A DNA stretch of 36,241 nt from an uncultured Gemmiger sp. (GTDB lineage: Bacteria > Bacillota > Clostridia > Oscillospirales > Ruminococcaceae). Position numbers and translations under genes: made by a program. The notes beneath the pieces are model-generated. The model worked only from the letters and a program-made list of their open reading frames with translations, made no database searches and was not told where the DNA came from. Where the stretch lies: contig CALWNP010000026.1 in the NCBI GenBank assembly GCA_944382835.1, positions 1 through 36,241 on the forward strand, written 5' to 3'. This document shows positions 11,772 to 36,241 of this stretch, piece after piece (position 1 is the stretch's first letter; each line of letters opens with the position of its first letter).

Positions 11772-11804
11772 GCATCGGGGGCCGTGCGCCCGTTTTTCGG
11801 ATGC
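11772..11804 (+). other. Weak nested stem-loop in the pgk leader
   Basis: An outer 5-bp stem (GCATC 11772-11776 with GATGC 11800-11804) encloses a 4-bp GGGC/GCCC hairpin (11779-11782 with 11788-11791) followed by GTTTTTC. It begins about 3 nt after the predicted transcription start. Stems are short, so this is marginal. It could be an attenuator-like or 5'-protective element. Confidence 0.3.
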
Positions 11805-11842
11805 AGAACAAAAACAATCAGGATCGAGAGGAGATTTTTACC

Positions 11843-13051
11843 ATGGGTTTGGGCAAAAAAACAATCGACGATCAGAACTATGCCGGTAAGCGGGTCCTGG
11901 TCCGCTGCGACTTCAACGTTCCGATGAAGGACGGCGTGATCACCAACGACAACCGCATCAACGCGGCTCTGCCGACCATCCAGAAGCTCATCAAGGACGG
12001 CGCCAAGGTCATCCTGTGCAGCCATCTGGGCAAGCCGAAGAACGGCCCCGAAGCCAAGTTCAGCCTGGCTCCCGTTGCGGTCCGCCTGTCCGAAAAGCTG
12101 GGCCAGCCGGTCACCTTCGCCGACGATGACAACGTGGTGGGCGACAAGGCCAAGGCTGCCGTTGCCACCATGCAGAACGGCGATGTGGTGCTGCTGCAGA
12201 ACACCCGCTTCCGCAAGGAAGAGACCAAGAACATCGACACCTTCAGTGAGGAGCTGGCTTCCCTGGCCGATGCCTATGTGGACGACGCTTTCGGCTCCTG
12301 CCACCGTGCTCACTGCTCCACCGCCGGCGTCACCAAGTATATCAAGGACACCGCTGTGGGCTACCTGATGGAAAAAGAAATCAAGTACCTGGGCAACGCC
12401 GTCAACGATCCCGTCCGTCCCTTCACCGCCATCCTGGGCGGCGCCAAGGTTGCCGACAAGCTCAACGTCATCTCCAACCTGCTGGAGAAGGTTGACACCC
12501 TGATCATCGGCGGCGGCATGGCCTACACCTTCCTCAAGGCCGAGGGCTACGAGATCGGCAAGAGCCTGTGCGACGACAGCAAGCTGGACTACTGCAAGGA
12601 CATGATGGCCAAGGCCAAGGAGAAGGGCGTCAAGCTGCTGCTGCCCGTTGACACCGCCTGTGTCAAGGACTTCCCCGATCCCATCGACGCTCCGGTGGAG
12701 ACCACCGTTGTGTCGGTCGACGCCATCCCCGCTGATATGGAAGGCTGCGACATCGGCCCCGAGACCATGAAGCTCTTTGCCGATGCCGTCAAGAGCTCCA
12801 AGACCGTTGTCTGGAACGGACCCATGGGCGTCTTCGAGAACCCGACCCTGGCTGCCGGCACCCTGGCTGTTGCCAAGGCCATGGCAGAGAGCGATGCCAC
12901 CACCGTCATCGGCGGCGGCGACTCCGCTGCGGCTGTCCAGCAGATGGGCCTGGGCGACAAGATGACCCACATCTCCACCGGCGGCGGCGCCTCTCTGGAG
13001 TACCTGGAGGGCAAGGAGCTGCCCGGCATCGCGGTCATCGAGAACGCATAA
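11843..13051 (+). CDS. pgk: Phosphoglycerate kinase
   Basis: This glycolytic enzyme transfers the acyl phosphate of 1,3-bisphosphoglycerate to ADP, giving ATP and 3-phosphoglycerate. The 402 residues are of normal length. The N-terminal substrate loop VRCDFNVP lies at 20-27, and the C-terminal nucleotide-binding GGGDSAAAV is present. Start chosen at ATG 11843 because AGGAG lies about 10 nt upstream and the protein aligns from MGLGKKTI. An in-frame ATG at 11801 lacks a binding site. It is first in a pgk-tpiA-gpmI operon. No GAPDH gene precedes it in the window, unlike many Firmicutes where gapA leads the cluster. Confidence 0.97.
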
Positions 13052-13190: not shown

Positions 13191-13958
13191 ATGGATAAGC
13201 AAAACCGCAAGGCAATCATTGCCGGTAACTGGAAAATGAATATGACCCCCACCGAGGCGGGCCATCTGATCGACGCCCTGATCCCCGCCGTGCAGAACGC
13301 CGGCTGCGAAGTGGTCATCTGCGTGCCCTTCACCGACCTCTGCGTGGCCGTGGCCAAGTGCAGCGGCACCAACATCCATGTGGGCGCCGAGAACGTCCAC
13401 TTTGAGAAGTCCGGTGCCTTCACCGGCGAAATCTCCGCCGACATGCTCACCGATCTGGGCGTGGAGTACGTTGTGGTCGGCCACAGCGAGCGCCGCCAGT
13501 ACTTCGCCGAGACCGACGAGACCGTCAACAAGCGCGCCCTGGCTGCCCTGGCCGGCGGCCTCAAGCCCATCATCTGCGTGGGCGAGAGCCTGGCCCAGCG
13601 GGAGCAGGGTGTCACCGAGGAACTGGTCCGGATGCAGGTCAAGATTGCCCTGCAGGGTGTCACCGCCGAACAGCTGAAGAACGTGGTCATCGCCTACGAG
13701 CCTGTCTGGGCCATCGGCACCGGCAAGACTGCCACCGCCGACCAGGCCGAGGAGGTCTGCGCCGCCATCCGCAAGGTGGTGGGCGAGCTCTACGGCGAGG
13801 ATGCCGCCAAGGCCCTCACCGTCCAGTACGGCGGCAGCATGAACGCCAAGAACGCCGAGGAACTGCTCTCCAAGCCCGACGTGGACGGCGGCCTGATCGG
13901 CGGCGCTTCCCTCAAGGCGGATCAGTTCGCCATCATCGTGGACGCGGCCAGCAAGTAA
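13191..13958 (+). CDS. tpiA: Triosephosphate isomerase
   Basis: This enzyme interconverts dihydroxyacetone phosphate and glyceraldehyde 3-phosphate. The 255 residues form a TIM barrel with the substrate residues Asn13 and Lys15 (GNWKMN), the electrophile His98 (VGHSERRQYF) and the catalytic base Glu170 (AYEPVWAIGTG, whose IGTG begins the mobile loop). The C-terminal phosphate site YGGS is also present. ATG at 13191 has AAAGGAG about 10 nt upstream. It is the second gene of the glycolytic operon, separated from pgk by a 139-nt structured spacer and from gpmI by 45 nt. Confidence 0.97.
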   Translation: MDKQNRKAIIAGNWKMNMTPTEAGHLIDALIPAVQNAGCEVVICVPFTDLCVAVAKCSGTNIHVGAENVHFEKSGAFTGEISADMLTDLGVEYVVVGHSERRQYFAETDETVNKRALAALAGGLKPIICVGESLAQREQGVTEELVRMQVKIALQGVTAEQLKNVVIAYEPVWAIGTGKTATADQAEEVCAAIRKVVGELYGEDAAKALTVQYGGSMNAKNAEELLSKPDVDGGLIGGASLKADQFAIIVDAASK

Positions 13959-14003: not shown

Positions 14004-15530
14004 ATGTCGAAAAAACCTGTCCTTCTCTGCATCATGGACGGTTTCGGCTGGACCCCGGAGCACACCTTCGGCAACGCCGTCACCGCCGCCAAGACCCCGC
14101 ATCTGGACGAGATCTTCAAGAACTACCCCATGACCACCATCCAGGCCTCCGGCATGGCTGTCGGCCTGCCCGACGGCCAGATGGGCAACAGCGAAGTCGG
14201 CCACACCAACATGGGCGCCGGCCGCATTGTCTACCAGCAGCTCACCCTCATCACCAAGTCCATCCGGGACGGCAGCATGAAGGAGAACCCGGTGCTGGTC
14301 AAGAACATGAAGGCTGCCATCGATGCCGGCAAGGCCATCCATCTGATGGGCCTGGTGGGCACCGGCGGTGTCCACAGCCATGCCGACCACTGGTTCGGCG
14401 TGCTGGACATGGCCAAGCACATGGGCGCCACCAAGGTCTACCTCCACTGCATCATGGACGGCCGTGACACCGACCCCCACAGCGGCAAGGGCTTTTTGGC
14501 CGATCTGCAGGCCAAGCTGGACGAGCTGGGCATCGGTCAGATTGCCACCGTCACCGGCCGTTACTACGCCATGGACCGGGACAACAACTGGGACCGTGAG
14601 GAGAAGGCCTATGCCGCCTTCGTCTACGGCGAGGGCAACCACGCCGCCAACGCCCAGGAGGCCATCGAGGCTTCCTATGCCGCCGATGTCACCGACGAGT
14701 TCGTGGTGCCCTGCGTCACCTGCGAGGGCGGCCGGGTTCAGGAAGGCGACACCGTCATCTTCATGAACTTCCGCCCCGACCGTGCCCGTCAGATGACCCG
14801 CATCTTTGTGGACGACGAGTTCAAGGGCTTCGAGCGCCGCTATGGCCGCTTCCCGGTCCACTACGTCTGCATGGCCGAGTACGACGCCACCATGCCCAAC
14901 TGCGAAGTGGCCTATCCGCCGGTGGAGCTGAAGAACGTCCTGGGCGAGTACCTGTCCAAGAACGGCAAGACCCAGCTGCGCATCGCCGAGACCGAGAAGT
15001 ATGCCCATGTGACCTTCTTCTTCAACGGCGGCGTGGAGGCTCCCTACGAGGGCGAGGACCGCAAGGTCGTTCCCAGCCCCAAGGTTGCCACCTACGACCT
15101 CAAGCCCGAGATGAGCGCCCCCGAGGTGGCCGCCGAGTGCAAGGCCCGCATTGAGAGCGGCAAGTATGATGTGATCATCCTCAACTTCGCCAACTGCGAC
15201 ATGGTCGGCCACACCGGCGTCTTTGACGCTGCGGTCAAGGCTGTGGAGGCGGTGGATGCCGCCGTCAACGAGGTGGTCACCGCCACCCTCAAGATGGGCG
15301 GTGTGGTCTTCCTGACCGCCGACCACGGCAATGCCGAGAAGATGGAGAACGAGGACGGCACCCCCTTCACCGCTCACACCACCAACCCGGTGCCCTTCGC
15401 CGTCATCGGCGCAGGGGATGTGAAGCTGCGGGAGGGCGGCTGCCTGGCCGACATCGCCCCCACCATGCTGCCCTATATCGGGCTGCCTGTTCCGGCTGAG
15501 ATGACCGGCAAGAGCATCATCGTCGAGTAA
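14004..15530 (+). CDS. gpmI: Phosphoglycerate mutase, cofactor-independent
   Basis: This Mn-dependent alkaline-phosphatase-superfamily enzyme converts 3-phosphoglycerate to 2-phosphoglycerate. The 508 residues are the usual iPGM length. Metal-ligand Asp12 sits in IMDGFGW and the phosphorylated Ser63 in GNSEVGHTNMGAG. Later metal-site motifs include FRPDRARQ, NFANCDMVGHTG and TADHGNAEKM. ATG at 14004 follows AAGGAGA. It closes the pgk-tpiA-gpmI operon, and a textbook terminator starts 10 nt after the stop. Enolase, the next pathway step, is not in the window. Confidence 0.97.
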   Translation: MSKKPVLLCIMDGFGWTPEHTFGNAVTAAKTPHLDEIFKNYPMTTIQASGMAVGLPDGQMGNSEVGHTNMGAGRIVYQQLTLITKSIRDGSMKENPVLVKNMKAAIDAGKAIHLMGLVGTGGVHSHADHWFGVLDMAKHMGATKVYLHCIMDGRDTDPHSGKGFLADLQAKLDELGIGQIATVTGRYYAMDRDNNWDREEKAYAAFVYGEGNHAANAQEAIEASYAADVTDEFVVPCVTCEGGRVQEGDTVIFMNFRPDRARQMTRIFVDDEFKGFERRYGRFPVHYVCMAEYDATMPNCEVAYPPVELKNVLGEYLSKNGKTQLRIAETEKYAHVTFFFNGGVEAPYEGEDRKVVPSPKVATYDLKPEMSAPEVAAECKARIESGKYDVIILNFANCDMVGHTGVFDAAVKAVEAVDAAVNEVVTATLKMGGVVFLTADHGNAEKMENEDGTPFTAHTTNPVPFAVIGAGDVKLREGGCLADIAPTMLPYIGLPVPAEMTGKSIIVE

Positions 15531-15540
15531 TCTGCCTGCC

Positions 15541-15576
15541 AGAGCGCCTTTCCTTTGTGGAAAGGCGCTCTTTTTT
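15541..15576 (+). terminator. Terminator of the glycolytic operon
   Basis: A perfect 13-bp stem (AGAGCGCCTTTCC 15541-15553 with 15559-15571, 5-nt loop) runs into six consecutive T residues. This is the clearest Rho-independent terminator in the window. Confidence 0.97.
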
Positions 15577-15629
15577 GCCGCTGCGGGCGGAAAATGGCGG
15601 AATTTGGCCGGCGGAGGGGCAAACTGGCC

Positions 15630-15658
15630 TTGCGGTCGGGACGAAAATCGGGTATAGT
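15630..15658 (+). promoter_or_regulatory. Promoter of the first amidotransferase unit
   Basis: TTGCGG (15630-15635) and TATAGT (15653-15658) are 17 bp apart, about 65 nt before the first PP-loop gene. Confidence 0.8.
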
Positions 15659-15723
15659 AAATTCAGGTGTAAGAATCCCGGGGTGCGCCCTGCGTCCCGA
15701 TTGTGGAAAAAAGGAGAACCGCT

Positions 15724-16845
15724 ATGCGTTACTGTAAAAAGTGTACCATGCCCGATACCCGGCCCGGCATCACCTTTGACGCCGAGGGCGTCTGCAGCGC
15801 CTGCCGCCACTACGAAAACCGCAAAAACATCGACTGGGATGCCCGGTTCAAGGAGTTTGAACAATTCTGCGACAAATACCGCGGCATGAACGGCCCCGGC
15901 GGCTATGACTGTGCCGTGGCGGTCTCGGGCGGCAAGGACAGCCACTTCCAGGTCTGGATGCTCAAGGAAGTCATGCACATGAACCCCATCCTCTTCAGCG
16001 TGGAGGACAACTTCCCCATGACCCAGGCCGGCATCCACAACCTCAAGAACCTCAGCGAGGAGTTCGGCTGCACCATCATCTCCTGCAAGCCCAACATCAA
16101 GGTCCAGAAGGTGCTGATGCGCAAATTCTTTGAGAAGTACGGCAAGCCCACCTGGTATGTGGACCGTCTGATCTACACCTTCCCGCTGCACATGGCGGCC
16201 AAGTTCAACACCCCCATGCTCTGCTACGGCGAGAACGTCAGCTTTGAGTACGGCGGCAACGCCGACGAGGAGACCTACTCCGCCATGGACCAGATCGAAA
16301 ACGGGGTGGCCGTGGGCTTCCCCATGGAGGAACTGGTGGGGGACGGCGTCACCGAGAAGGACCTGAGCCTGACCCTGGCCCCCTCCGCCGAGGAGCGGGC
16401 CAAGCTGGACCCCTTCTACCTGAGCTACTTTGTGCCCTGGAACAGCTACAAGAACTACCAGATCGCCAAGGCCCACGGCTTCCACGACCTGACCCACGAG
16501 TGGGACCGCACCCACCACGCCGAGAACTTTGACCAGATCGACTCCCGGGCTTACCTGGTCCACTCCTGGCTCAAGTATCCCAAGTTCGGCCACGCCGCCG
16601 CCACCGACTACACCGCCCGCTACATCCGCTACGGCATGATGACCCGGGAGGAGGCCATCCCCATCATCAAGGCCCGAGACGGCAAGCTGGACCCCCTCTG
16701 TGTGCGGGATTTCTGCGACTTCTGCGGTTACACCGAGAGCGAGTTCTGGGCCATCCTGGACAAGTTCTACAACCGGGATCTCTTTGAGAAAAACGAGTAC
16801 GGCGAGTGGGTCCTCAAGCATCCCATCTGGGAGGAGAAGGCGTGA
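15724..16845 (+). CDS. N-acetyl sugar amidotransferase-like PP-loop protein (first copy)
   Basis: The 373-residue protein looks like the WbpG/PseA family of ATP-dependent enzymes that turn an N-acetyl group on a sugar into an acetamidino group using ammonia. Visible features are a Cys4 probable zinc site (Cys4, Cys7, Cys24, Cys27 in CKKCTMPDT and GVCSACRHY) and an ATP-PPase loop SGGKDS at 68-73. CYGENVSFEYGG (middle) and a Cys cluster CDFCGYTESEFW (about 331-342) follow. ATG at 15724 follows AAGGAG. It overlaps the next gene by 4 nt. The family supports amidation chemistry, but the sugar substrate is unknown, since no sugar-nucleotide pathway is adjacent. The HisF/HisH-like pair 2 kb downstream is the likely ammonia source. 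Confidence 0.82.
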   Translation: MRYCKKCTMPDTRPGITFDAEGVCSACRHYENRKNIDWDARFKEFEQFCDKYRGMNGPGGYDCAVAVSGGKDSHFQVWMLKEVMHMNPILFSVEDNFPMTQAGIHNLKNLSEEFGCTIISCKPNIKVQKVLMRKFFEKYGKPTWYVDRLIYTFPLHMAAKFNTPMLCYGENVSFEYGGNADEETYSAMDQIENGVAVGFPMEELVGDGVTEKDLSLTLAPSAEERAKLDPFYLSYFVPWNSYKNYQIAKAHGFHDLTHEWDRTHHAENFDQIDSRAYLVHSWLKYPKFGHAAATDYTARYIRYGMMTREEAIPIIKARDGKLDPLCVRDFCDFCGYTESEFWAILDKFYNRDLFEKNEYGEWVLKHPIWEEKA

Positions 16846-17048
16846 ACCGGGAGGAAAAACTGGCCGCCTATGAGCGGATGCAGGCTGCCGTCCGGGCCGA
16901 GTACGACAGCACCGCCACCAAAATGGCGGAGCTCAAGGCCAAGGGGCGGGAAAAATCTGCCACCTACCGCCAGCTGTTCGCCCGCAAGCTCACCCTGGGG
17001 GAGCTGCTGAGCTGGTACAAAACCTACGACCTGGCCGATGACAACTAA
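16842..17048 (+). CDS. Small charged helical protein, unknown function
   Basis: This gene encodes 68 residues from a GTG that overlaps the stop of the upstream amidotransferase (GTGA, 16842-16845), with GAGGAG 5 nt before it. The overlap and binding site make translational coupling likely. The protein is rich in Lys, Glu, Arg and Ala and should be mostly alpha-helical (KLAAYERMQAAVRAEYDS, then KMAELKAKGREKSATY). It ends in a more hydrophobic GELLSWYKTYDL stretch. I do not recognise a family. It may be an accessory subunit of the PP-loop enzyme, but position is the only evidence. Confidence 0.65.
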   Translation: MNREEKLAAYERMQAAVRAEYDSTATKMAELKAKGREKSATYRQLFARKLTLGELLSWYKTYDLADDN

Positions 17049-17064
17049 GGACAAAGGAGAAACT

Positions 17065-17367
17065 ATGGTCAAACATCTGATCCTCTGGCAGCTCCGGGAT
17101 GAGCTGACCGATTCCGAAAAACAGACCGTCAAGGCCGAGATCAAGGCCGGGCTGGAGGGCCTGGCCGGCAAGATCCCCGGCCTGGTGGAGATCCATGTCC
17201 AGACCGACTGCCTGCCCACCTCCAACGCCGACCTGCTGCTGGATTCCACCTTCACCGATGCGGCCGCCCTCCAGGGCTACTCGGTCCATCCCGACCACCT
17301 GGCGGTGGCCAACGGCAAGGTGCGCCCCAACACCAAGTCACGCACCTGCATGGATTTTGAGGTCTGA
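17065..17367 (+). CDS. Dabb-family (stress-responsive alpha/beta barrel) protein
   Basis: This 100-residue protein has the features of a Dabb ferredoxin-like domain. It begins MVKHLILWQLRDE and contains KIPGLVEIHVQTD and DLLLDSTFTDAAALQGY, with the characteristic late YSVHPDHLAVAN segment. Dabb proteins usually form dimers with a central barrel; some bind small ligands and many have no assigned role. ATG at 17065 follows AAAGGAG and lies 16 nt after the small upstream gene, so it is probably the last gene of the first amidotransferase unit. The next promoter begins 5 nt after its stop. A link to sugar amidation is untested. Confidence 0.8.
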   Translation: MVKHLILWQLRDELTDSEKQTVKAEIKAGLEGLAGKIPGLVEIHVQTDCLPTSNADLLLDSTFTDAAALQGYSVHPDHLAVANGKVRPNTKSRTCMDFEV

Positions 17368-17372
17368 CCCCC

Positions 17373-17401
17373 TTGCAAATGACCGGGGAATGTGCTATAA
17401 T
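17373..17401 (+). promoter_or_regulatory. Promoter of amidotransferase-hisF-hisH unit
   Basis: TTGCAA (17373-17378) and a perfect TATAAT (17396-17401) are 17 bp apart. The predicted start, near 17408, lies just before a strong stem-loop. Confidence 0.87.
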
Positions 17402-17424
17402 CCCCATGTATAAACGGCAAGGAT

Positions 17425-17464
17425 GCCGCACCGACAGGGGTACTGTCGGTGCGGCCCTTTTCGT
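17425..17464 (+). terminator. Terminator or attenuator in the leader of the second unit
   Basis: A perfect 13-bp stem (17425-17437 with 17443-17455, 5-nt loop) is followed by CCTTTTCGTTT. It lies downstream of the TATAAT promoter and upstream of the ribosome binding site. It can therefore end read-through from the first unit, and it must also be passed by transcripts starting at the new promoter. Confidence 0.7.
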
Positions 17465-17502
17465 TTACCGCTTGCTATGGTGATAATGGAGTGAGAAAAA
17501 CT

Positions 17503-18876
17503 ATGGAAAAAATGCCGCGCTATGTCGAGATCGACTATGCCAAGTATGCCCCCGACCTGCCGCTGGAACAGCGGGAGGCCTACTACGGGCTGCCAAAAGA
17601 AGTCAAATTCTGCAAAGAATGTGTCATGAGCAACCAGAAGCCCAACTCCTGCTACGAGTTTGAGCACACCATCCATTCCAAAAAGAAGACGATGGTCATT
17701 CAGGAGGACGGGGTCTGCGATGCCTGCCACGCCTGCCACAACAAGGCCAACGGCCACATCGACTGGGCCCTGCGGGAAAAGGAACTGCGGGAGCTCTGCG
17801 ACCAGTACCGCAAGAACGACGGCAGCTACGACTGCCTGGTGCCCGGCTCCGGCGGCAAGGACAGCTTCTACGCTGCCCATCTGCTGCGCTACAAGTACGG
17901 CATGCACCCCCTGACCGTCACCTGGGCGCCTCACATCTACACCCCCTGGGGCTGGCAGAACATGCAGGCCTGGATTCACGCCGGCTTTGACAACTATCTC
18001 TGCACCCCCAACGGCATGACCCACCGTCTGCTGACCCGTCTGGCCACCGAAAACCTCTTCCATCCCTTCCAGCCCTTCATCCTGGGGCAGAAGCAGCTGG
18101 CCCCCAAGATGGCGGCCAAGTTCGGCATCCCCCTGGTCTTCTACGGCGAGAACGAGGCCGAGTTCGGCAACCCCATCGCCGACAACAACAGCGCGCTGCG
18201 GGATGAGCATTTCTTCTCGGTGAACGATTACGACCATATCTATCTGGGCGGCGTCAGCCTGCGCCAGCTGGAGGAGGACTACAAGGTGGACAAGGCCGAC
18301 CTGGCCATCTACCTGCCCTCCGAAACCTCCAACCTGGAAAAGAACCATGTCCAGGTGCGGTATCTGGGCTACTACGAGAAGTGGCATCCCCAGGGCGCCT
18401 ACTACTACGCGGTGGAGCACGGTGGCTTCCGCCCCGCCCCCGAGCGCACCCAGGGCACCTACTCCAAGTACAACTCCATCGATGACAAGATCGACGACTT
18501 CTTCTACTACACCACCTATATCAAGTACGGCATCGGCCGCACCACCTACGACGCTGCCCAGGAAATCCGCAACGAGGAGATCACCCTGGAAGAAGGCAAG
18601 GCCCTCTGCAAGCGGTTCGACGGCGAGTACCCCGACCGTTTCGAGAAGGAGATCATGGATTATCTCTCGCTGGATCCCCAGCACTTCCCCTGGGCCAGCC
18701 AGCTCTTTGAGCAGCCGATGATGGACCGGGAGTACTTCATGCACCTGGCCGACCGGTTCCGCTCTCCCCACCTCTGGAAGTGGGAGGACGGCATGTGGAA
18801 GCTGCGCTACACCCCCTATGAGGGGGACAGCGAGGTGCTTTGGGGCGATCCCAAGGGTACCCACCACGAAATCTGA
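17503..18876 (+). CDS. N-acetyl sugar amidotransferase-like PP-loop protein (second copy)
   Basis: The 457-residue protein belongs to the same broad WbpG/PseA-like family as the gene at 15724 but is clearly different: it is longer at the N-terminus and diverged throughout. It has a probable zinc site (Cys37, Cys40, Cys72, Cys75, with Cys78 nearby) and a PP-loop SGGKDS at 116-121 within PGSGGKDSFYAA. A substrate-side segment reads FYGENEAEFGNP. Predicted reaction: ATP-dependent amidation of an N-acetylated sugar with ammonia from HisH/HisF. ATG at 17503 follows GGAGTGAG; in-frame upstream codons lie inside the leader hairpin and were rejected. It is first in a unit with the hisF- and hisH-like genes 12 nt downstream. 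Confidence 0.83.
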   Translation: MEKMPRYVEIDYAKYAPDLPLEQREAYYGLPKEVKFCKECVMSNQKPNSCYEFEHTIHSKKKTMVIQEDGVCDACHACHNKANGHIDWALREKELRELCDQYRKNDGSYDCLVPGSGGKDSFYAAHLLRYKYGMHPLTVTWAPHIYTPWGWQNMQAWIHAGFDNYLCTPNGMTHRLLTRLATENLFHPFQPFILGQKQLAPKMAAKFGIPLVFYGENEAEFGNPIADNNSALRDEHFFSVNDYDHIYLGGVSLRQLEEDYKVDKADLAIYLPSETSNLEKNHVQVRYLGYYEKWHPQGAYYYAVEHGGFRPAPERTQGTYSKYNSIDDKIDDFFYYTTYIKYGIGRTTYDAAQEIRNEEITLEEGKALCKRFDGEYPDRFEKEIMDYLSLDPQHFPWASQLFEQPMMDREYFMHLADRFRSPHLWKWEDGMWKLRYTPYEGDSEVLWGDPKGTHHEI

Positions 18877-18888
18877 GGAGGCGGCATC

Positions 18889-19662
18889 ATGGCAAAAAAG
18901 ATCCGCCTGATTGCCCGGCTGGATGTCAAGGGCAGCAACCTGGTCAAGGGCATCCAGCTGGAAGGGCTGCGCAAGCTGGGCGACCCCAACCACTTCGCCC
19001 GGGAATACTACGAGCAGGGCATTGATGAACTGCTCTACATCGATATTGTGGCCAGCCTGTACAACCGCAACAACCTCTCCGACATCGTCCGCAAGACGGT
19101 GCAGGAGGTCTATGTGCCGGTCTGCGTGGGCGGCGGCCTGCGCAGTGTGGAGGACGTGCGGGCCATCCTGTCCGCCGGCGCCGACAAGGCGGCCATCAAC
19201 ACCGCCGCCGTCAAGCGCCCCGAGCTGATCTCGGAGGTGGCGGCGGCCTTCGGCAGCCAGTGCATGGTGCTCTCCATCCAGGCCAAGCGCAGCGGCCCCG
19301 GCCGCTGGGAGGCCTATTATGACAACGGCCGCGCCCATTCCGGCTACGATGTGGTGGAATGGGCCAAGCGGGGCGTGGAACTGGGGGCAGGGGAGATCCT
19401 GCTCACCAGCGTGGACAACGAGGGCCTGCAGCGGGGCATGGATCTGGAACTGATCCGTGCGGTGAGCCAGGCCGTGGATGTCCCGGTGATCTGCGGCGGC
19501 GGTGTGGGCTGTGCGGCCGACGCCGTGGCCGGTGCCAAGGCCGGGGCTGACGCCATCGCCTGTGCGGCGGTGCTGCATTACGGCAAGGAGACGGTTTCGG
19601 GGCTCAAGACAGCCCTGCGGGCCGCCGGAGTGGAGGTGCGCCATGAAAGTGACCGTCATTGA
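18889..19662 (+). CDS. hisF: HisF-family subunit, probable ammonia-channel partner of the amidotransferase
   Basis: This 257-residue (beta/alpha)8 protein is homologous to the cyclase subunit of imidazole glycerol phosphate synthase. It has the N-terminal LDVKG (Asp12 equals catalytic Asp11 of HisF) and the phosphate-site loops VGGGLRS and CGGGVG, plus [14 protein letters not shown]. The second catalytic Asp of HisF (Asp130, in IDAKR) is Gln131 here (SIQAKR), so histidine-pathway cyclase activity is doubtful. HisF-like proteins beside WbpG-type enzymes (HisF2/AglZ type) deliver ammonia for acetamidino-sugar formation. The strong AGGAGG overlaps the upstream stop region, and the gene overlaps the hisH-like start by 20 nt. 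The symbol is the family name only. Confidence 0.82.
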
Positions 19663-20296
19663 TTACGGCTTGTCCAACCTCTTCAGCGTCCAGCGGGCCT
19701 TCACCCATCTGGGCGCCGAGGTGGAGGTGGTCAACCAGCCCCAGCAGGTGCAGGAGGCTTCGGCCCTGGTGCTGCCGGGGGTGGGCGCCTTCCAGGACGG
19801 CATGGACGGCCTGGCCAAGCTGGGCCTGATCCAGCCCATCCGGGACAAGGCCGCCGCCGGTACCCCGCTGCTGGGCATCTGCCTGGGAATGCAGATGCTC
19901 TTTGACGAATCTGAAGAGTTCGGCCTCCACCAGGGGCTGGGCCTGATCCCCGGCCGGGTGGTGCGGATCCCGTCGGTGGACACTGACAACGCGCCCCAGC
20001 GGGTGCCCCACATCGGGTGGGACCCACTGCTGCCGGCGCAGGGGCGGACGGATTTTGGGGGCAGCGCCCTGGCGGGGCTGCATCCCGGAGAAGAGTGCTA
20101 TTTCATCCACAGCTATGAGGCCAAGCCCACCCGGGAGACCGACCGGCTGGCCGATACCCTCTATGGCGGGCGGCGTGTCTGTGCGGCAGCCGCCTGCGGC
20201 AGTGTGCTGGGGGTCCAGTTCCATCCCGAAAAATCCGGCCCGGTGGGGCTGGAGATCCTGCGGGGCTGGCTGGCCCAGTGCGAAGGGCGGGCCTGA
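19643..20296 (+). CDS. hisH: HisH-family class I glutaminase subunit
   Basis: This 217-residue glutamine amidotransferase resembles HisH and should hydrolyse glutamine and pass ammonia into the HisF-like barrel. The catalytic triad is intact: nucleophile Cys80 (GICLGMQ), His194 and Glu196 (QFHPEKS). The oxyanion strand PGVGAF (45-50) and the HisF-interface signature VPHIGWD are also present. ATG at 19643 lies inside the end of the hisF-like gene, a typical coupled arrangement. No hisA, hisI, hisB or other histidine gene is nearby, and the partner is a PP-loop amidotransferase, so a role in sugar amidation is favoured over histidine synthesis. The symbol reflects family only. Confidence 0.85.
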   Translation: MKVTVIDYGLSNLFSVQRAFTHLGAEVEVVNQPQQVQEASALVLPGVGAFQDGMDGLAKLGLIQPIRDKAAAGTPLLGICLGMQMLFDESEEFGLHQGLGLIPGRVVRIPSVDTDNAPQRVPHIGWDPLLPAQGRTDFGGSALAGLHPGEECYFIHSYEAKPTRETDRLADTLYGGRRVCAAAACGSVLGVQFHPEKSGPVGLEILRGWLAQCEGRA

Positions 20297-20328
20297 AGAG
20301 ATTTTTTTGAGTTTTTTTGAAAAAATGC

Positions 20329-20357
20329 TTGACTTTCTCACGATCATCTGGTATAGT
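20329..20357 (+). promoter_or_regulatory. tRNA-Val promoter
   Basis: TTGACT (20329-20334) and TATAGT (20352-20357) are 17 bp apart. The mature tRNA begins 17 nt after the -10 box. Confidence 0.88.
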
Positions 20358-20373
20358 AAACAAGTCGTGAGAC

Positions 20374-20449
20374 GCGCGGTTAGCTCAGCTGGTAGAGCAT
20401 CTGCTTGACGTGCAGGAGGTCACAGGTTCGAGTCCTGTACCGCGCACCA
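20374..20449 (+). tRNA. tRNA-Val (anticodon GAC)
   Basis: The 76-nt gene has a 7-bp acceptor stem (GCGCGGT with ACCGCGC), a D arm (GCTC/GAGC) and an anticodon arm TCTGC-TTGACGT-GCAGG. The T arm is ACAGG-TTCGAGT-CCTGT. The anticodon loop places GAC at positions 34-36, reading GUC and GUU valine codons. The 3' CCA is encoded (20447-20449). It is monocistronic, between its own promoter and a UUCG-loop terminator. Confidence 0.97.
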
Positions 20450-20453
20450 AAAC

Positions 20454-20486
20454 AAAGACCCCGGAACTTCGGTTCCGGGGTCTTTT
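20454..20486 (+). terminator. tRNA-Val terminator
   Basis: A perfect 14-bp stem (20454-20467 with 20472-20485) is closed by a TTCG tetraloop and ends in TCTTTTC, 5 nt after the tRNA. Confidence 0.92.
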
Positions 20487-20505
20487 CTTGCTGCCTGGAC
20501 CACAC

Positions 20506-20535
20506 AAAAAGGCCCCGGTCCCTGGGGACCGGGGC
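20506..20535 (-). terminator. Terminator of the CAP-domain gene
   Basis: An 11-bp inverted repeat (20512-20522 with 20525-20535) reads on the minus strand into CTTTTTG (complement of 20506-20510). It ends the minus-strand gene 9 nt after its stop and sits end to end with the tRNA terminator. Confidence 0.88.
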
Positions 20536-20543
20536 ATGACAGA

Positions 20544-22259
20544 TCAATGGCAGATGGGGCAGGGGGTGTAGCCGATGTTGACGGCGTCCTGCAGCAGCAG
20601 GGGCACGCTGCGCTTGCTGCCCATACCGGCGCAACCGCCGACGTGGTAGCTGTTGTCATTGGCCACCACATAGACCATCTGGCCCTGGGTGGGGGCCAGG
20701 CCAAAGCTGTTGAGGATGGTGTTGAACTCGGCGGATTTGGAGATGCCGTACATGAGGGCTTCCCGCTTCATCCCGTCCTTCAGGCGGCTGACCCAGTCCG
20801 CCAGCCCCTGCTTGTCGGGGGTGCGGTCCAGGAAGACGCGGTAGAGCAGGGTGACAAATTCCTCATCCGAAAGATTCTTTTTCTCCATCTCGGGGGAGAA
20901 GAAGAAGCCGTACCCCACCTGTTCGGGGGTGTTCACCCCGTTCAGGATGGCGGAGGTCCAGTTGTTCAGGCCGTTGACATCGGGGGTGCGGGAGAGGGCG
21001 ATGCTGTACAGCCGGGAGACAAAGCCGGTGACGCCGGCGTTCTGATCCCGGGCTTCGGTCAGAGCCACCGAGCCGCGGATGATGCCGGCATTGCTGCAGA
21101 TCTGGGAGAACTCGTTGGATTCGGCAAAGCCCCGGAAGATGTAGGTGCGGGAGAACCCGGTCTTGAGGTTGTTCAGCCAGTTGTTCATTCCGCCCTGGTC
21201 GGCCTCCCGGTTCAGCATGGTCCGGTAGAGGATCTGGATGAAGGTGGTGTCGGAGGTCTTCTTGTTGAGGAACTCGTCGCTGAAGAAGAAGCCCTGGGCC
21301 GCCTGGGCGCCGGAGTTCTTTCCGGTGGTGATGGCGGTGTACCAGTTGGCCAGGCCGCTCACGTCGGGGGAGCGCTCCAGCACCAGCTCATACAGCCGGA
21401 TGACGAAGTTCTTGACCAGAAGCTGGGCGTCGGTGCCGGCGGCCTCGGAGATGACGGTGCTGGTGGTGGTGCCGGAGTAGGCGTACTGGCCGTTGCCGGT
21501 GCCGCTGGTAAAGTTCTGGGACCAATAGTACCCGTAGGTGGTGCCGTCCACCTGGGCCATGGAGACTGCCATGGTGGTGTAGCCGGGGTTGAGGATGTTG
21601 GCGCGGTGACCCGGCGAGTTCATCCAGAGGTTGACCACCTGCTCGGCGGTGCGGGAGCCGGCGGCGATGTTCTCACCGCCCAGCCGCACCCCGCTAGGGT
21701 AGGCACTGAAGCAGTCCTGCCCGTTGGGGCGGGTGTGGCTGAAGGACACGGTGCACTCGGCGGCACGCAGGGCGGCGGTCTGCTCCAGGGTGGAATCCCA
21801 GCTCAGGGGATTCAGCCCGTACTGGGCCCGGATCTGGTTGACCAGGGTCAGCACCTTGTGGGCCTCGTCATAGTGGAAGGTGGCGGTGATGGAGGCGGGC
21901 ACCATCCGGGAGTTGGGGTCCAGCAGGGAAGACCCCGAGGTGCCTGCCTCAAAGGTGGACTGGGAACCCTCTTCCCCCACCACACCGGTCAGCTCCTCCT
22001 CCGTCACGGGGGCGGGCTGGGGCGTCTGCTCCGCCGCGGCCTCGGGCTGGACGGCGGGAACTTCCACGCTCTCGGAAACCGGAGCCGGCTGCGGGGTGGC
22101 AGCGGGCTCGGTGACCGGGGCAGATTCTTCCTCCAGCAGGATGCCCTCGGTCTGGGGCAGCGCGGACTCGGGGGTGGCGGCGGCCAGGGCACCGGTGGAC
22201 AGGGACAGGGCCAGGGCACCGGTCAGAACCAGGGAAACAAAGCGACGTCTGGGATACAA
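20544..22259 (-). CDS. Secreted CAP-domain protein with DUF4214-like repeats and Cys/His tail
   Basis: The 571-residue predicted exported protein starts with a signal peptide (RRR, then a Leu/Ala core ending near ALAAA at about 27). A Pro/Glu/Ala-rich linker runs to about 120. A CAP (SCP/YkwD-like) domain covers about 130-255, with His175 (FSHTRP), Glu196 (GENIAAG) and His218 (SPGHRANIL), the residues that line the CAP cavity. Two repeats of about 105 residues follow (about 283-385 and 411-515), resembling DUF4214: each has RLY near the start, S/TPD..GL.NW, FFFS and YR..L.R. The tail (538-571) has Cys543, Cys567, Cys570 and His571 in GYTPCPICH, probably a metal site. A TTG start is chosen from ribosome binding site spacing. 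The role is unknown, probably at the cell surface. Confidence 0.85.
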   Translation of the reverse strand: MYPRRRFVSLVLTGALALSLSTGALAAATPESALPQTEGILLEEESAPVTEPAATPQPAPVSESVEVPAVQPEAAAEQTPQPAPVTEEELTGVVGEEGSQSTFEAGTSGSSLLDPNSRMVPASITATFHYDEAHKVLTLVNQIRAQYGLNPLSWDSTLEQTAALRAAECTVSFSHTRPNGQDCFSAYPSGVRLGGENIAAGSRTAEQVVNLWMNSPGHRANILNPGYTTMAVSMAQVDGTTYGYYWSQNFTSGTGNGQYAYSGTTTSTVISEAAGTDAQLLVKNFVIRLYELVLERSPDVSGLANWYTAITTGKNSGAQAAQGFFFSDEFLNKKTSDTTFIQILYRTMLNREADQGGMNNWLNNLKTGFSRTYIFRGFAESNEFSQICSNAGIIRGSVALTEARDQNAGVTGFVSRLYSIALSRTPDVNGLNNWTSAILNGVNTPEQVGYGFFFSPEMEKKNLSDEEFVTLLYRVFLDRTPDKQGLADWVSRLKDGMKREALMYGISKSAEFNTILNSFGLAPTQGQMVYVVANDNSYHVGGCAGMGSKRSVPLLLQDAVNIGYTPCPICH

Positions 22260-22268
22260 AATCACATT

Positions 22269-22273
22269 CCTCC
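22269..22273 (-). promoter_or_regulatory. Ribosome binding site that sets a TTG start
   Basis: GGAGG on the minus strand lies 9 nt before TTG (22257-22259) but only 3 nt before an in-frame GTG (22263-22265). The frame continues upstream to an ATG at 22320-22322 that overlaps the -10 box and so cannot be the start of this transcript. Confidence 0.7.
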
Positions 22274-22289
22274 TTTTTGGGGTCTTTGG

Positions 22290-22305
22290 GCCGGAAAGGT
22301 CCGGC
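22290..22305 (-). other. Stem-loop at the 5' end of the CAP-gene mRNA
   Basis: A perfect 6-bp stem (GCCGGA / TCCGGC) with a 4-nt loop lies 15 nt after the -10 box, at about +10 of the transcript and well upstream of the ribosome binding site. No T-run follows. Confidence 0.5.
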
Positions 22306-22320
22306 AAAATGATTACTTCC

Positions 22321-22350
22321 ATTATAGAAAGGGCGCCCCACAGGTGTCAA
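22321..22350 (-). promoter_or_regulatory. CAP-gene promoter
   Basis: On the minus strand a perfect TTGACA (complement of 22345-22350) and a perfect TATAAT (complement of 22321-22326) are 18 bp apart. It is divergent from the ruvC promoter. Confidence 0.88.
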
Positions 22351-33499: not shown

Positions 33500-34494
33500 T
33501 CCGGCGCCGGGCGCTGGGATGGCTGGCCGCCGCGGCGGTGGGGCTGCTGCTGGCGGGCTGTGTGGCCGGCCGGCGGGAGTTCTCCGCTGTCATCCCCGAG
33601 ATTGACTCCGGACGGTCCTCCACCGCCATCCCCCATATTCTCGACAACACCCAGGACCAGCAGCGCACCGAAGAGCAGAAAGCCTACGGCAGTGCCGGGC
33701 TCATCGCCTGGCCCACCGCGGTGGTCAGCGTCTATCTGGATTCCACCGACGGCACCGCCTGGGACGAGGCCTCCATCGCCGAGACCCGGGCCAAACTGGA
33801 CCTGGCGGTGGACTGGATTGATGGGCAGGCCGCCCGCTACGGCATGAGCACTACCCTCTACCACGACGACGGCACCGAGGACAGCGGTTTGTTTTACCGC
33901 GAAACCTTCGACGGCAGCTTTGTGGGCGGGGTGGACGGGGAGGAATCCGAAGCCCTCTATGCCCGGATTTCCGCCCTCTGCCGCAGCCTGGACAGCCGGG
34001 CGCTGCATCAAAAGTACAACACCTCCAGCGTGGCTTTTCTCTTCTTTCTGCCGGTGTCCGGCTCCTCTTACAGCATTGTGCACTATCTGGAGGACGGCAG
34101 CGCCAACTATTACGAGTACAGCATCCTCTATGCGGGGGATGCCTACACCGACGCCCCCGAAACCCCGGCGGTCTACGCCCATGAGCTGCTGCACCAGTAC
34201 GGGGCGCCGGATCTCTACGAGGGCAGCAGCGATTACTATGTCACCCCCATGCTCTCCCGGTATGTGGCGCTGCACTGGCCCGATGCCATCATGTACGACA
34301 CCTACAACCCCGACGGCAGCATGAGCTGGGACGAGATTCCCCAGCAGCTGTGCCCCCTGACGGCCTACCGCCTGGGGCTTTGCAGCGGCTTTGCGGGGCT
34401 GGAAAGCTGGCCCGACGTGGGCGGCAATCCGCCCGGCACCTTTGCTGAGGAAGCTGTGGAGGAAAGCGATCTGCGTCAGGAGGTGGCGGTATGA
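33496..34494 (+). CDS. Lipoprotein with metzincin-like HExxHxxGxxD signature
   Basis: The 332-residue protein has a basic start (MIRRR) and a hydrophobic core, with lipobox LLAGC, so Cys22 should be lipidated and the protein anchored outside the membrane. The segment AHELLHQYGAPDLY contains His229, Glu230, His233, Gly236 and Asp239, i.e. HExxHxxGxxD, a zinc-protease signature in which Asp would be the third ligand, as in snapalysin-type metzincins. I do not recognise a named family for the rest, and activity is inference from the motif. The start overlaps the Clp ATPase stop (ATGA) and the stop overlaps the AraC-type gene (ATGA), so all three are translationally coupled. Confidence 0.78.
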   Translation: MIRRRALGWLAAAAVGLLLAGCVAGRREFSAVIPEIDSGRSSTAIPHILDNTQDQQRTEEQKAYGSAGLIAWPTAVVSVYLDSTDGTAWDEASIAETRAKLDLAVDWIDGQAARYGMSTTLYHDDGTEDSGLFYRETFDGSFVGGVDGEESEALYARISALCRSLDSRALHQKYNTSSVAFLFFLPVSGSSYSIVHYLEDGSANYYEYSILYAGDAYTDAPETPAVYAHELLHQYGAPDLYEGSSDYYVTPMLSRYVALHWPDAIMYDTYNPDGSMSWDEIPQQLCPLTAYRLGLCSGFAGLESWPDVGGNPPGTFAEEAVEESDLRQEVAV

Positions 34495-35372
34495 GTGACG
34501 GTGTGTCGCGGGAAAATGTTCCCTTCCGGCTCACCGAGCTGGTCTGCGCCTCCCTCACCGAATGGCGCACCGGCGAGACCCTGCCCGCCCGCACCAGCGA
34601 GGCCTGGCAGCTGGTCTATCTGCGCAGCGGGGTCATTGAGGAGCAGTGCGACACCCATTGGATTACGGTGCGCCGGGGCGGACTGCTCTTTCACCAGCCC
34701 AACGAGCGGCATGCCATGCGGGCGGTGAGCGAGGTCCCGCCGGAGGTGCTGCGCATCGAGTTCCGGTGTGACGGTGCTGCCATGGACCTCTTCCGGGGCC
34801 GCAGCCTGGTGGCCAACGCGGGGGAAAAGGCCTGCCTGCGGGCGCTGAGCGCCAGTGTGGAGGAGGTCTTCGAGGCCCCCGACCAGCCCGACCAGCCGGC
34901 AGCCCTGCGGCAGGACGCCCCCTTCGGCGCCCAGCAGCTCATGGGGGTCCAGCTGATCTGGCTGCTCATCATGCTCACCCGGCGGCTGCGCCGCCCCCAC
35001 AAACCCTCCCCCCGCGCCCGGATGGAACAGGACCAGGCATCCCTGGTGGAGGCGGTGCGGCAGTACTTTGCCCACCACATCGAGCGGGAGCTGCGGCTGG
35101 AGGAGATCTGCACCGAAAACGAGTGCGGCCGGGTCCAGCTGCAGAACGCCTTCCGGGCCCGCACCAAGATGGGGCCGATGGAATATTTCGGCATGATGCG
35201 GCTGGAGCACGCCGGAACCCTGCTGGCCCAGGGCTACACCCCCGGCCAGGTGGCCCAGCGGATGCATTACAGCTCGGGGGCCTACTTTGCCCACCGGTTC
35301 AAGGAGGTCACCGGCCAGACCCCCAGCGCCTACCGCAAAAAACCGCAGCCGCTGCATTTGTGCAACAAATAG
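34491..35372 (+). CDS. AraC-family transcriptional regulator
   Basis: The 293-residue protein has an N-terminal cupin-like sensor region (about 10-100, with LVYLRSGVIEEQ and RRGGLLFHQPNERHAMRA) and a C-terminal AraC/XylS double helix-turn-helix (about 185-285). The latter includes LRLEEICTENECGRVQLQNAF, and YSSGAYFAHRFKEVTGQTPSAYR at the end. The cupin suggests a small-molecule ligand. It overlaps the metalloprotease-like lipoprotein by 4 nt. Targets are unknown: it could control its own operon or galE, whose promoter starts about 25 nt after this gene. Confidence 0.9.
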   Translation: MSDGVSRENVPFRLTELVCASLTEWRTGETLPARTSEAWQLVYLRSGVIEEQCDTHWITVRRGGLLFHQPNERHAMRAVSEVPPEVLRIEFRCDGAAMDLFRGRSLVANAGEKACLRALSASVEEVFEAPDQPDQPAALRQDAPFGAQQLMGVQLIWLLIMLTRRLRRPHKPSPRARMEQDQASLVEAVRQYFAHHIERELRLEEICTENECGRVQLQNAFRARTKMGPMEYFGMMRLEHAGTLLAQGYTPGQVAQRMHYSSGAYFAHRFKEVTGQTPSAYRKKPQPLHLCNK

Positions 35373-35492: not shown

Positions 35493-36241
35493 ATGGCAAT
35501 TTTGGTCAGTGGCGGCGCCGGTTACATCGGCAGCCATACCTGTGTTGAACTGCTGCAGGCGGGTTACGACATCGTGGTGGCGGACAACTACTACAACTCC
35601 TGCCCCGAGGCCCTGGCCCGGGTCAAACAGATCACCGGCAAGGACTTCCGCTTTGTGGAGGCCGATATGACCGACAAGAAGGCCGTGGAGGCCATCTTCC
35701 AGGCCAACCCCGACATCGACTGTGTCATCCAGTTCGCCGCCTACAAGGCGGTGGGGGAGAGCGTCTCCAAGCCCATCGAGTACTACTCCAACAACCTGGC
35801 CTGCACCCTGAACATCCTGGACGTGATGCGCCGGCACAACTGCCACAACATCATCTTCTCCTCCTCGGCCACCGTCTACGGTGACCCTGCCAGCGTGCCC
35901 ATCACCGAGGACTTCCCGGTGGGCGGCACCACCAACCCCTACGGCACCACCAAGGTCTTCACCGAGCGCATCCTCACCGACTGCTGCAAGGCGGACCCCG
36001 AGCTGAATGTGGCGCTGCTGCGCTACTTCAACCCCATCGGTGCCCATCCCTCCGGCCTGATCGGCGAGGACCCCAACGGTATCCCCAACAACCTGGTGCC
36101 CTACATCGCCAAGGTGGCGGTGGGCAAGCTGGAGAAGGTCCATGTCTTCGGCAATGACTATCCCACCCCCGACGGCACCGGCGTGCGGGACTACATCCAT
36201 GTGGTGGACCTGGCCCGCGGCCATGTGGCGGCCATCCGCAA
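35493..36241 (+). CDS. galE: UDP-glucose 4-epimerase, 5' part (runs off window)
   Basis: GalE interconverts UDP-glucose and UDP-galactose (some members also act on the N-acetyl forms) using bound NAD. The 249 complete codons present show the Rossmann motif GGAGYIGSHT (7-16) and the IQFAAYKAVGESV loop. The catalytic SSSATVYG and YGTTK (Tyr-x3-Lys) follow, then ALLRYFNPIGAHPSGLIGEDP and GTGVRDYIHVVDLA. About 90 residues should lie beyond the window end. ATG at 35493 follows AAAGGAG. It could supply UDP-Gal or UDP-GalNAc for surface glycans, but there is no direct tie to the amidotransferase block 15 kb away. Confidence 0.95.
   Translation, partial: MAILVSGGAGYIGSHTCVELLQAGYDIVVADNYYNSCPEALARVKQITGKDFRFVEADMTDKKAVEAIFQANPDIDCVIQFAAYKAVGESVSKPIEYYSNNLACTLNILDVMRRHNCHNIIFSSSATVYGDPASVPITEDFPVGGTTNPYGTTKVFTERILTDCCKADPELNVALLRYFNPIGAHPSGLIGEDPNGIPNNLVPYIAKVAVGKLEKVHVFGNDYPTPDGTGVRDYIHVVDLARGHVAAIR

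Follow-up and report, generated by a model that had tools for sequence, protein, structure and literature searches.

Background

PP-loop enzymes that work together with a HisH-type and a HisF-type protein are exemplified by the trios WbpG-HisH2-HisF2 of Pseudomonas and WbuX-WbuY-WbuZ of Escherichia coli. In this study we consider a block of genes from the same protein families, with two amidotransferases (A and B), a HisF-like barrel and a HisH-like glutaminase, on a 36,241-base contig of an uncultured Gemmiger sp. of the Ruminococcaceae (GCA_944382835.1, contig CALWNP010000026.1; this whole stretch is called the window). Our analysis makes it probable that A and B amidinate legionaminic acid for a non-flagellar surface glycan, and that B, with the HisF-like and HisH-like genes, is coupled to glutamine metabolism through a leader of the ANTAR type. 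As described in PMC10607449, WbpG and WbuX act on a mannuronate or fucosamine derivative, unlike the substrate predicted here, and the HisF-like protein of the window falls below the cut-off of the WbuZ model (263.1 vs 299.7 bits).

Closer in substrate are the systems of Legionella and Campylobacter. The O-antigen sugar of Legionella is described as legionaminic acid with a 5-acetamidino group (PMC3766260), and a HisF-type gene, lpg0749, is listed in L. pneumophila (PMC3694923). B resembles LpNASAT of that species (PDB 8WEX) in its 39-residue cysteine span and in an extra segment between the cysteine pairs; unlike in L. pneumophila, the genes concerned are here split over three contigs, a second amidotransferase is present, and there is a link to a glutamine cluster. 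In Campylobacter jejuni, PtmG is given as the acetamidino-synthase of CMP-Leg5Am7Ac and PseA as that of CMP-Pse5Ac7Am (PMC13317340, PMC3766260). Two amidotransferases per genome are a feature shared with C. jejuni, a likeness drawn from the description and not from sequence; however, PtmG and PseA each serve their own flagellin sugar, whereas here one nonulosonate synthase scores over 200 bits and flagellin is unmatched.

As to regulation, the known ANTAR targets are described as two hairpins, mostly before nitrogen genes (PMC3369931, PMC3369936). The leader of B is like the EutV and NasR leaders of these reports in its hexaloop with A1 and G4, in the overlap with a terminator, and in the company of nitrogen genes including glutamine and glutamate synthases; it is unlike them in having one hairpin instead of two and in that a sugar-amidation operon is among the predicted targets. 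Among the literature matches listed, neither an amidino-legionaminic acid in Gemmiger or its relatives nor an ANTAR-controlled sugar amidotransferase was found, and the ANTAR-type hexaloop hairpin with its T-run in the leaders of B is new here.

The block and its two amidotransferases

The window is the whole of contig C26 in a genome (G000) of 2,518,402 bases in 83 contigs that is 90.9% complete, and gene identities are based on BLAST hits and family searches. The elements of the block are as follows.

15724-16845, + strand, amidotransferase A, 373 aa, short form without the lid insert (TIGR03573, 350.7 bits)
16806-17048 as listed, perhaps from 16842, + strand, open reading frame of 80 aa, no family match
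17065-17367, + strand, Dabb-domain gene (Pfam)
17373-17401, + strand, promoter-like site TTGCAA-17-TATAAT in the B leader (consensus scan 10/12, with TG)
17415-17428, + strand, hexaloop hairpin CGGC-AAGGAT-GCCG (A1, G4), resembling the ANTAR-target type, its 3' strand overlapping the terminator
17425-17455, + strand, intrinsic terminator-like hairpin in the B leader, ahead of the start codon (13 pairs, 10 of them G-C, T-rich tail)
17503-18876, + strand, amidotransferase B from its ATG, long form with the lid insert, LpNASAT type (TIGR03573, PDB 8WEX)
18889-19662, + strand, HisF-like (WbuZ-like) barrel (PF00977, 208.5 bits)
19643-20296, + strand, HisH-like glutaminase with Cys-His-Glu triad (TIGR01855, 190.9 bits)

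The four genes of interest are not all adjacent, because the 80-aa reading frame and the Dabb gene separate A from B. Both amidotransferases exceed the TIGR03573 cut-off of 203.2 bits (B with 336.4 for the stretch from 17494), and the SGGKDS PP-loop and four cysteines are found in A, in B and in every aligned close relative; in A, the SGGKDS motif and Cys4, 7, 24 and 27 are invariant in 14 of 14 aligned proteins. Judged by family and residues, A and B are thus intact N-acetyl sugar amidotransferases of the TIGR03573 family. A first interpretation of the window from its letters alone (the sequence-only reading) had already placed two PP-loop proteins in this class, rightly in view of these scores, and the grouping with tRNA-thiolation or asparagine-synthetase enzymes that it had named as a danger was not found.

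The two enzymes are far from being copies of each other. They share only 26.8% identity, and the cysteine span is 24 residues in A vs 39 in B. Over residues 14-440, B matches the L. pneumophila structure 8WEX with 645 bits (E 4.9e-193), and A reaches only 101 bits. In PMC10607449 a disordered segment of LpNASAT is said to be missing from other members, and the long cysteine span of B agrees with the extra segment between the cysteine pairs as described there. Across genera (e.g. loci L038, L041 and L046) B is 78-94% and A 72-94% identical to the window; the HisF-like (62-83%) and HisH-like (47-71%) proteins are less conserved.

A survey was made of 148 genomes of the family, 32 of them with TIGR03573 over the cut-off and 116 without, A and B being assigned by match length and also by sequence where copies were retrieved, which was the case for A in 27 of the 32 genomes and for B in 16 of 19. 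A is present in all 32 positive genomes (partial in two), and B in 19, never without A. In one genome a third TIGR03573-type match in two pieces, one with an internal stop, was observed (G020:C1:931158-932164); a second NeuB (220 bits) lies some 6 kb away.

Legionaminic acid as the predicted substrate

In the sequence-only reading the system was called stand-alone and the modified molecule unknown. Both statements are an effect of the window and had to be given up, because candidate genes for legionaminic acid (Leg genes) lie on other contigs of the same genome. LegB is found at G000:C14:39335-40315 (TIGR04180, 498.2 bits vs a cut-off of 475). On contig C7, LegC, a nucleotidyltransferase that we take to be PtmE-like, LegI (TIGR03569, 459.4 vs 399.65), LegG (TIGR03568, 379.3 vs 235.9), two further genes (one matching Gfo/Idh) and a CMP-sugar synthetase, the candidate for LegF, follow each other in one direction. 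From these genes, together with the neighbours of A in relatives, which carry A beside or inside such sets, the modified molecule can be predicted as legionaminic acid.

Contig C14 also carries a surf_polysacc gene (TIGR04396, 274.5 vs 125) with a match below the cut-off to the BFO_1060 transferase model, which suggests it as the glycosyltransferase. With it are an MBOAT-like gene and a gene resembling the SGNH-type neighbour of relatives, the latter named by eye (DUF1574, 26 bits vs a cut-off of 29.1), and O-acylation of the glycan is suggested because MBOAT and SGNH-type genes are present. Beside these genes stands a membrane protein without family match, read as a flippase by eye. After LegB there runs a series of large membrane-like proteins (G000:C14:40340-47400, L072 2340-9367), possibly glycosyltransferases; the first resembles a DUF2142 protein of a relative, and the two that were tested gave no family match.

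Across the 148 genomes the amidotransferases track LegB and NeuB, and not flagellin. LegB exceeds its cut-off in 28 of the 32 TIGR03573-positive genomes vs 2 of the 116 others, and the four positive genomes that miss it have split, partial or 460.7-bit LegB matches. NeuB over 300 bits occurs in 30/32 vs 3/116 genomes, and over 200 bits in 31/32 vs 14/116. For flagellin the counts are 8/32 vs 41/116 (p 0.30). In fact PF00669 is unmatched in the window's own genome (at its 90.9% completeness), and flagellin was rejected there as the acceptor; the sequence-only reading had been correct in holding the locus not to be flagellar.

The neighbourhoods of A point in the same direction. The best 80 of 270 relatives of A were used as named loci, with neighbours assigned by non-overlapping best hits; the nearest of them are Gemmiger records. 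A Leg or surf_polysacc gene lies within 10 kb of A in 48 of the 80, and at least four Leg genes do so in 4. We call a locus Gemmiger-type when at least one of B, the Dabb gene, the 80-aa reading frame, PGK, TIM and GPMI is near A, which holds for 24 loci: B is found in 16 of them, the HisF-like and HisH-like genes in 14, glycolysis genes in 12, and no locus of this type has a Leg or surf_polysacc gene near A. By definition B is absent from the remaining 56; of these, 43 carry surf_polysacc, 33 LegB, 36 one or more Leg genes, and 48 either kind; several 'Gemmiger' records are among these 56, as NCBI genus names are loose in this group. In three loci (L174, L178 and L183) A stands together with LegB, LegC, PtmE, LegI, LegG and LegF. 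Most likely, A is a member of the legionaminic acid gene set that became separated from it in the lineage of the window.

Relatives in more distant lineages were also considered, with six plasmid contexts read from gene tables that are incomplete. On a plasmid of Rhizobium WL3, a B relative (62.6% identical) lies inside a run of Leg genes, namely LegB, LegC, neuC, neuB, an acetyltransferase, a nucleotidyltransferase, an oxidoreductase, a cytidylyltransferase, an SDR, the amidotransferase, WbuZ and HisH. In Pseudohalocynthiibacter a B relative occurs with HisF- and HisH-type genes, a NeuB-family gene and neuC. On an Alistipes plasmid an A relative (47.7%) is flanked by neuC and a flippase gene, with NeuB-family and cytidylyltransferase genes just upstream; HisF and HisH are not listed in the 16 kb shown of this incomplete table. 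A B relative of Azospirillum lipoferum (63.2%) has a cytidylyltransferase about 10 kb away; the members in Azospirillum TSA2s and strain SC52 are more distant and adjoin HisF and HisH. As a separate observation, Subdoligranulum variabile OY725868.1 and OY725857.1 (about 300 kb, listed as plasmids) carry an A relative (88%) and a B relative (82%).

The HisF-like and HisH-like pair

Both proteins of the pair are as the sequence-only reading had described them. The HisF-like barrel matches PF00977 but stays below both curated cut-offs, that of WbuZ (TIGR03572, as given above) and that of hisF (TIGR00735, 258.6 vs 294.55 bits); WbuZ is the best model by score, and by this measure the protein is WbuZ-like only. 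The HisH-like protein is over the TIGR01855 cut-off of 105.4 bits, Cys80, His194 and Glu196 are all present in its translation (counted by eye), and the GICLG and QFHPEK motifs recur in 12 of 12 aligned HisH-type sequences.

That reading had also made the pair the partner of both PP-loop proteins, which stands for B and fails for A. A second HisF-type gene adjoins B in 18 of 19 B genomes and is found in none of the 13 genomes with A only. In the one exception, G110, the second HisF-type gene is on another contig with a HisH-like neighbour. As for the 13 A-only genomes, the only hisF is one linked with hisA in 8, and a strong HisF match is lacking in 5, including G081 (99% complete) and G101 (100%). 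By gene order and distribution, therefore, the partner of the pair is B and not A, and A seems not to need HisF/HisH because the A-only genomes have no second HisF-type gene.

The genome has a histidine set of its own on contig C9, where hisF and hisA are adjacent (PF00977) and hisH is beside them (TIGR01855). We take Asp11 and Asp130 to be the cyclase catalytic residues of HisF. The HisF-like protein keeps Asp11 and has Gln in the place of Asp130; all 11 aligned copies linked with B show this Gln, and the own hisF has Asp. Moreover 23 of 28 HisF loci fit a strict pattern, 6 with an ARLD start and Gln, 17 with a PCLD start and Asp, and none mixed.

The leader of B and the link with glutamine genes

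For the gene order around B, 11 loci were examined, taken from outside the window and outside the 16 Gemmiger-type B loci. In 8 of the 11, glnA, an ANTAR gene, B, the HisF-like and the HisH-like genes run in one direction; the three without the glnA-ANTAR-B order are the congener L038, L046 and L232 (8 kb only). The gene glnN (type III glutamine synthetase) is near B in 6 of the 11 and pyrG in 7. In the window's own genome, glnN, glnA, an ANTAR gene and pyrG lie together on C9, apart from B, and the ANTAR gene beside glnA scores 50.5 bits with PF03861 vs 27.3. The ANTAR assignment is Pfam-confirmed in L044 and in the own genome and is a BLAST match in the other loci.

The B leader of the window contains the promoter-like site and the terminator-like hairpin listed above, which the sequence-only reading had overlooked. 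In window positions 15400-20600 there are 3 promoter-like sites vs 1.1 expected and 11 terminator-like ones vs 4.0 expected. All of 28 B leaders have a hairpin of 3-7 pairs with a six-base loop carrying A1 and G4, followed by a T-run; the controls that satisfy this rule number 28 of 1120 among dinucleotide shuffles of these leaders, 92 of 2000 among random stretches from the loci concerned, and 4 of 79 among A leaders. When the stem must have 4 pairs or more, the counts become 24/28, 10/1120, 58/2000 and 4/79, respectively. Overlap of hexaloop and terminator is seen in the window and in 5 B leaders of a scan with 5 pairs. Before A in the window, no hexaloop hairpin with a stem of at least 4 pairs was found.

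The same hairpin, by the 4-pair rule, also precedes glnA (5/8), glnN (4/6) and pyrG (7/7). Furthermore, a hexaloop of at least 5 pairs with an overlapping terminator was sought in 444,870 strand-bases and found at 18 sites vs 2 in one block shuffle. Of these 18, 15 precede B (5), glnN (4), GATase_2 genes (2, labelled gltB by eye), pyrG, or an asparagine-synthase-like, an aminotransferase or a putative glutaminase gene. The leaders at L050 about 3423 (-), L054 about 2811 (-), L051 about 14284 (-), L039 13161 (+) and L041 15305 (+) are those of the two GATase_2 genes, the asparagine-synthase-like gene, the aminotransferase gene (dapL by eye) and the class-II-glutaminase-like gene, the last label being taken for a gene without Pfam match. 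There is perhaps a wider glutamine regulon behind these shared leaders.

Covariation was examined in an alignment of 31 of the 42 leaders found; those left aside are 9 near-identical Gemmiger-type B leaders and the hits L054_glnA and L116, which lay 214 and 237 bases from the gene. In 46 cells both sides of a pair are changed vs 17.4 on shuffling, paired cells are 89.7% vs 64.3%, and the covariation score is 0.706 vs 0.238, with changed stems before B, glnN, glnA and pyrG. These values are biased upward because all 42 leaders had been selected for stems of at least 4 pairs. An RNA model drawn from the leaders gave 38 matches in the own genome (best E 0.02), including the glnN and gltB leaders, whose overlapping terminators score 37.5 and 43.5; a terminator score of at least 24 is reached by 5 of the 30 matches examined. 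Rfam, searched with 6 sources, found only tRNA, the thiamine pyrophosphate (TPP) riboswitch and signal recognition particle (SRP) RNA, and left the leader unmatched.

Proposed mechanism and its alternatives

Taken together, we propose the following scheme. LegB and the LegC-PtmE-LegI-LegG-LegF set would make CMP-legionaminic acid. A and B, with ATP, would replace the acetamido oxygen by NH on legionaminic acid or its CMP form, giving the acetamidino group. HisH would hydrolyse glutamine and the HisF-like barrel, presumably no longer able to make imidazole glycerol phosphate, would hand the ammonia to B; A would be fed otherwise, independent of HisF and HisH. The product would be exported into a surface glycan, probably O-acylated, and not placed on flagellin. 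As to control, the leader of B may fold either as the terminator or as a small hexaloop hairpin such as ANTAR proteins bind, and upon a changed glutamine supply an ANTAR protein would hold the hexaloop, the terminator would be blocked, and B-HisF-HisH would be read.

A number of observations weigh against this scheme and should be set beside it. The models for LegI and LegG, TIGR03569 and TIGR03568, are named for N-acetylneuraminate genes, and for this reason it is LegB, LegC and the gene order that point to legionaminic acid in particular. LegC itself is below its cut-off (354.2 vs 420, translated from an internal start), and the LegF candidate is a weak cytidylyltransferase match (PF02348, 39.2 vs 22.6; PseF, 70.5 vs 205.7). 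There is no clear LegH: NeuD was tried for this role and rejected, as its matches stay below the cut-off in 12 of 12 genomes, other acetyltransferase families not having been searched. LegB occurs without TIGR03573 in 2 genomes, and neither Leg nor surf_polysacc genes are near A in 8 of the 56 loci, some of them on short contigs. The Fisher p-values overstate the association, since genomes share ancestry and the tests are not independent, and several A-only genomes are incomplete, down to 64%. In Azospirillum lipoferum the 25 kb shown of the incomplete table list no HisF, HisH or neuB. For the leader, the loop AAGGAT of the window departs from the usual AAAGGC, the window's own B leader is absent from the 38 matches of the RNA model, and the 5-pair scan gives no site in the window because the stem there has 4 pairs. 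A second hexaloop hairpin was not found, the upstream candidate occurring in 2 of 28 leaders vs 4.5 expected by shuffling; there is little room for one because in 19 of 28 leaders the -10-like box starts 17-25 bases before the closing base of the loop.

The alternative that survives best concerns the leader. It is possible, though on the unlikely side, that the hairpin is an ordinary attenuator or terminator and no ANTAR target, and that B is constitutive or otherwise controlled. The single hexaloop hairpin and the loop of the window off the consensus would fit this explanation, ANTAR binding being a prediction. Against it, a loop with A1 and G4 and a closing C-G pair is met again before B, glnN, glnA and pyrG although the stems differ, all 28 B leaders carry the hairpin vs 28 of 1120 shuffles, 15 of the 18 sites of the stricter scan stand before B or amino-acid and glutamine genes, and in 8 of 11 loci glnA and B have an ANTAR gene between them.

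Another alternative, which we regard as unlikely, is that A and B do not share a substrate: one would act on legionaminic acid and the other, in the manner of WbpG and WbuX, on an acetamido sugar of the same glycan that is not a nonulosonate. The low identity of A and B is in its favour, and other TIGR03573 members act, according to PMC10607449, on ManNAc3NAc-uronate or FucNAc. Moreover, in most of the relatives examined B is part of the glutamine cluster, and B does not occur in any named locus that also has a Leg or surf_polysacc gene within reach of A. Against this, B is never found without A in its 19 genomes, neuB and neuC genes accompany the B relatives of Rhizobium and Pseudohalocynthiibacter, and just one NeuB-type synthase over 200 bits is present in 17 of the 19 genomes that have both A and B. 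Because of this single synthase, both amidotransferases may work on one sugar, perhaps on two of its positions. An extended form of the idea, that A and B doubly amidinate one legionaminic acid to a 5,7-diacetamidino residue, with B-HisF-HisH under a one-hairpin ANTAR attenuator so that surface charge follows nitrogen status, is in our opinion rather doubtful; if true, the residue would carry two positive groups and one carboxylate.

The remaining two alternatives can be treated briefly. That the block is a free-standing pathway for the amidation of a small molecule, as the sequence-only reading had allowed, is very improbable: no glycan gene showed outside the block among the window proteins scanned with Pfam, yet the genome contains Leg genes, and in relatives these are neighbours of A. 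That the pair serves histidine synthesis as a spare imidazole glycerol phosphate synthase is hardly credible, for although the HisH-like protein exceeds the histidine HisH cut-off, a histidine role is ruled out by the separate hisF-hisA-hisH (the rest of the his operon not having been searched), so that the second refutation named in the sequence-only reading did not come true either, and by Gln at the second catalytic Asp in all B-linked copies, ARLD/Gln and PCLD/Asp never being mixed.

Other features of the window

The genes next to the block are as follows.

11801-13051, PGK, glycolysis gene 5' of the block
13191-13958, TIM, glycolysis gene 5' of the block
14004-15530, GPMI, glycolysis gene 5' of the block
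20374-20449, tRNA-Val, directly after the block in the + strand listing

The position between glycolysis genes and a tRNA is thus as first described, and so is the lack of glycan genes outside the block among the window proteins scanned with Pfam, except that a weak LegB-like match of the SDR type (64.5 bits, 32% identity) stands at 35496-36059, where the contig ends, next to an AraC-type regulator gene (34491-35369). A protein with a CAP domain and four DUF4214 stretches is encoded at 20544-22322 (-). The 80-aa reading frame and the Dabb gene, whose place between A and B the sequence-only reading had overlooked, were set aside as parts of the system: they occur in 8 and 17 of the 80 named loci, none of which has a Leg or surf_polysacc gene within 10 kb. 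In named relatives both are confined to Gemmiger-type loci, a group partly defined by both.

Conclusions

Amidino-nonulosonic acids have been described for the O-antigen of Legionella and the flagella of Campylobacter, and a family of gut Firmicutes is now predicted to carry them as non-flagellar surface sugars, with pathway candidates named for every gene except LegH. Sugar amidotransferases of two classes can be told apart by whether they are tied to HisF/HisH, and this bears on the source of ammonia of each. Moreover, the modification of a surface sugar would in this family be tied to glutamine metabolism through an RNA switch that can be tested.

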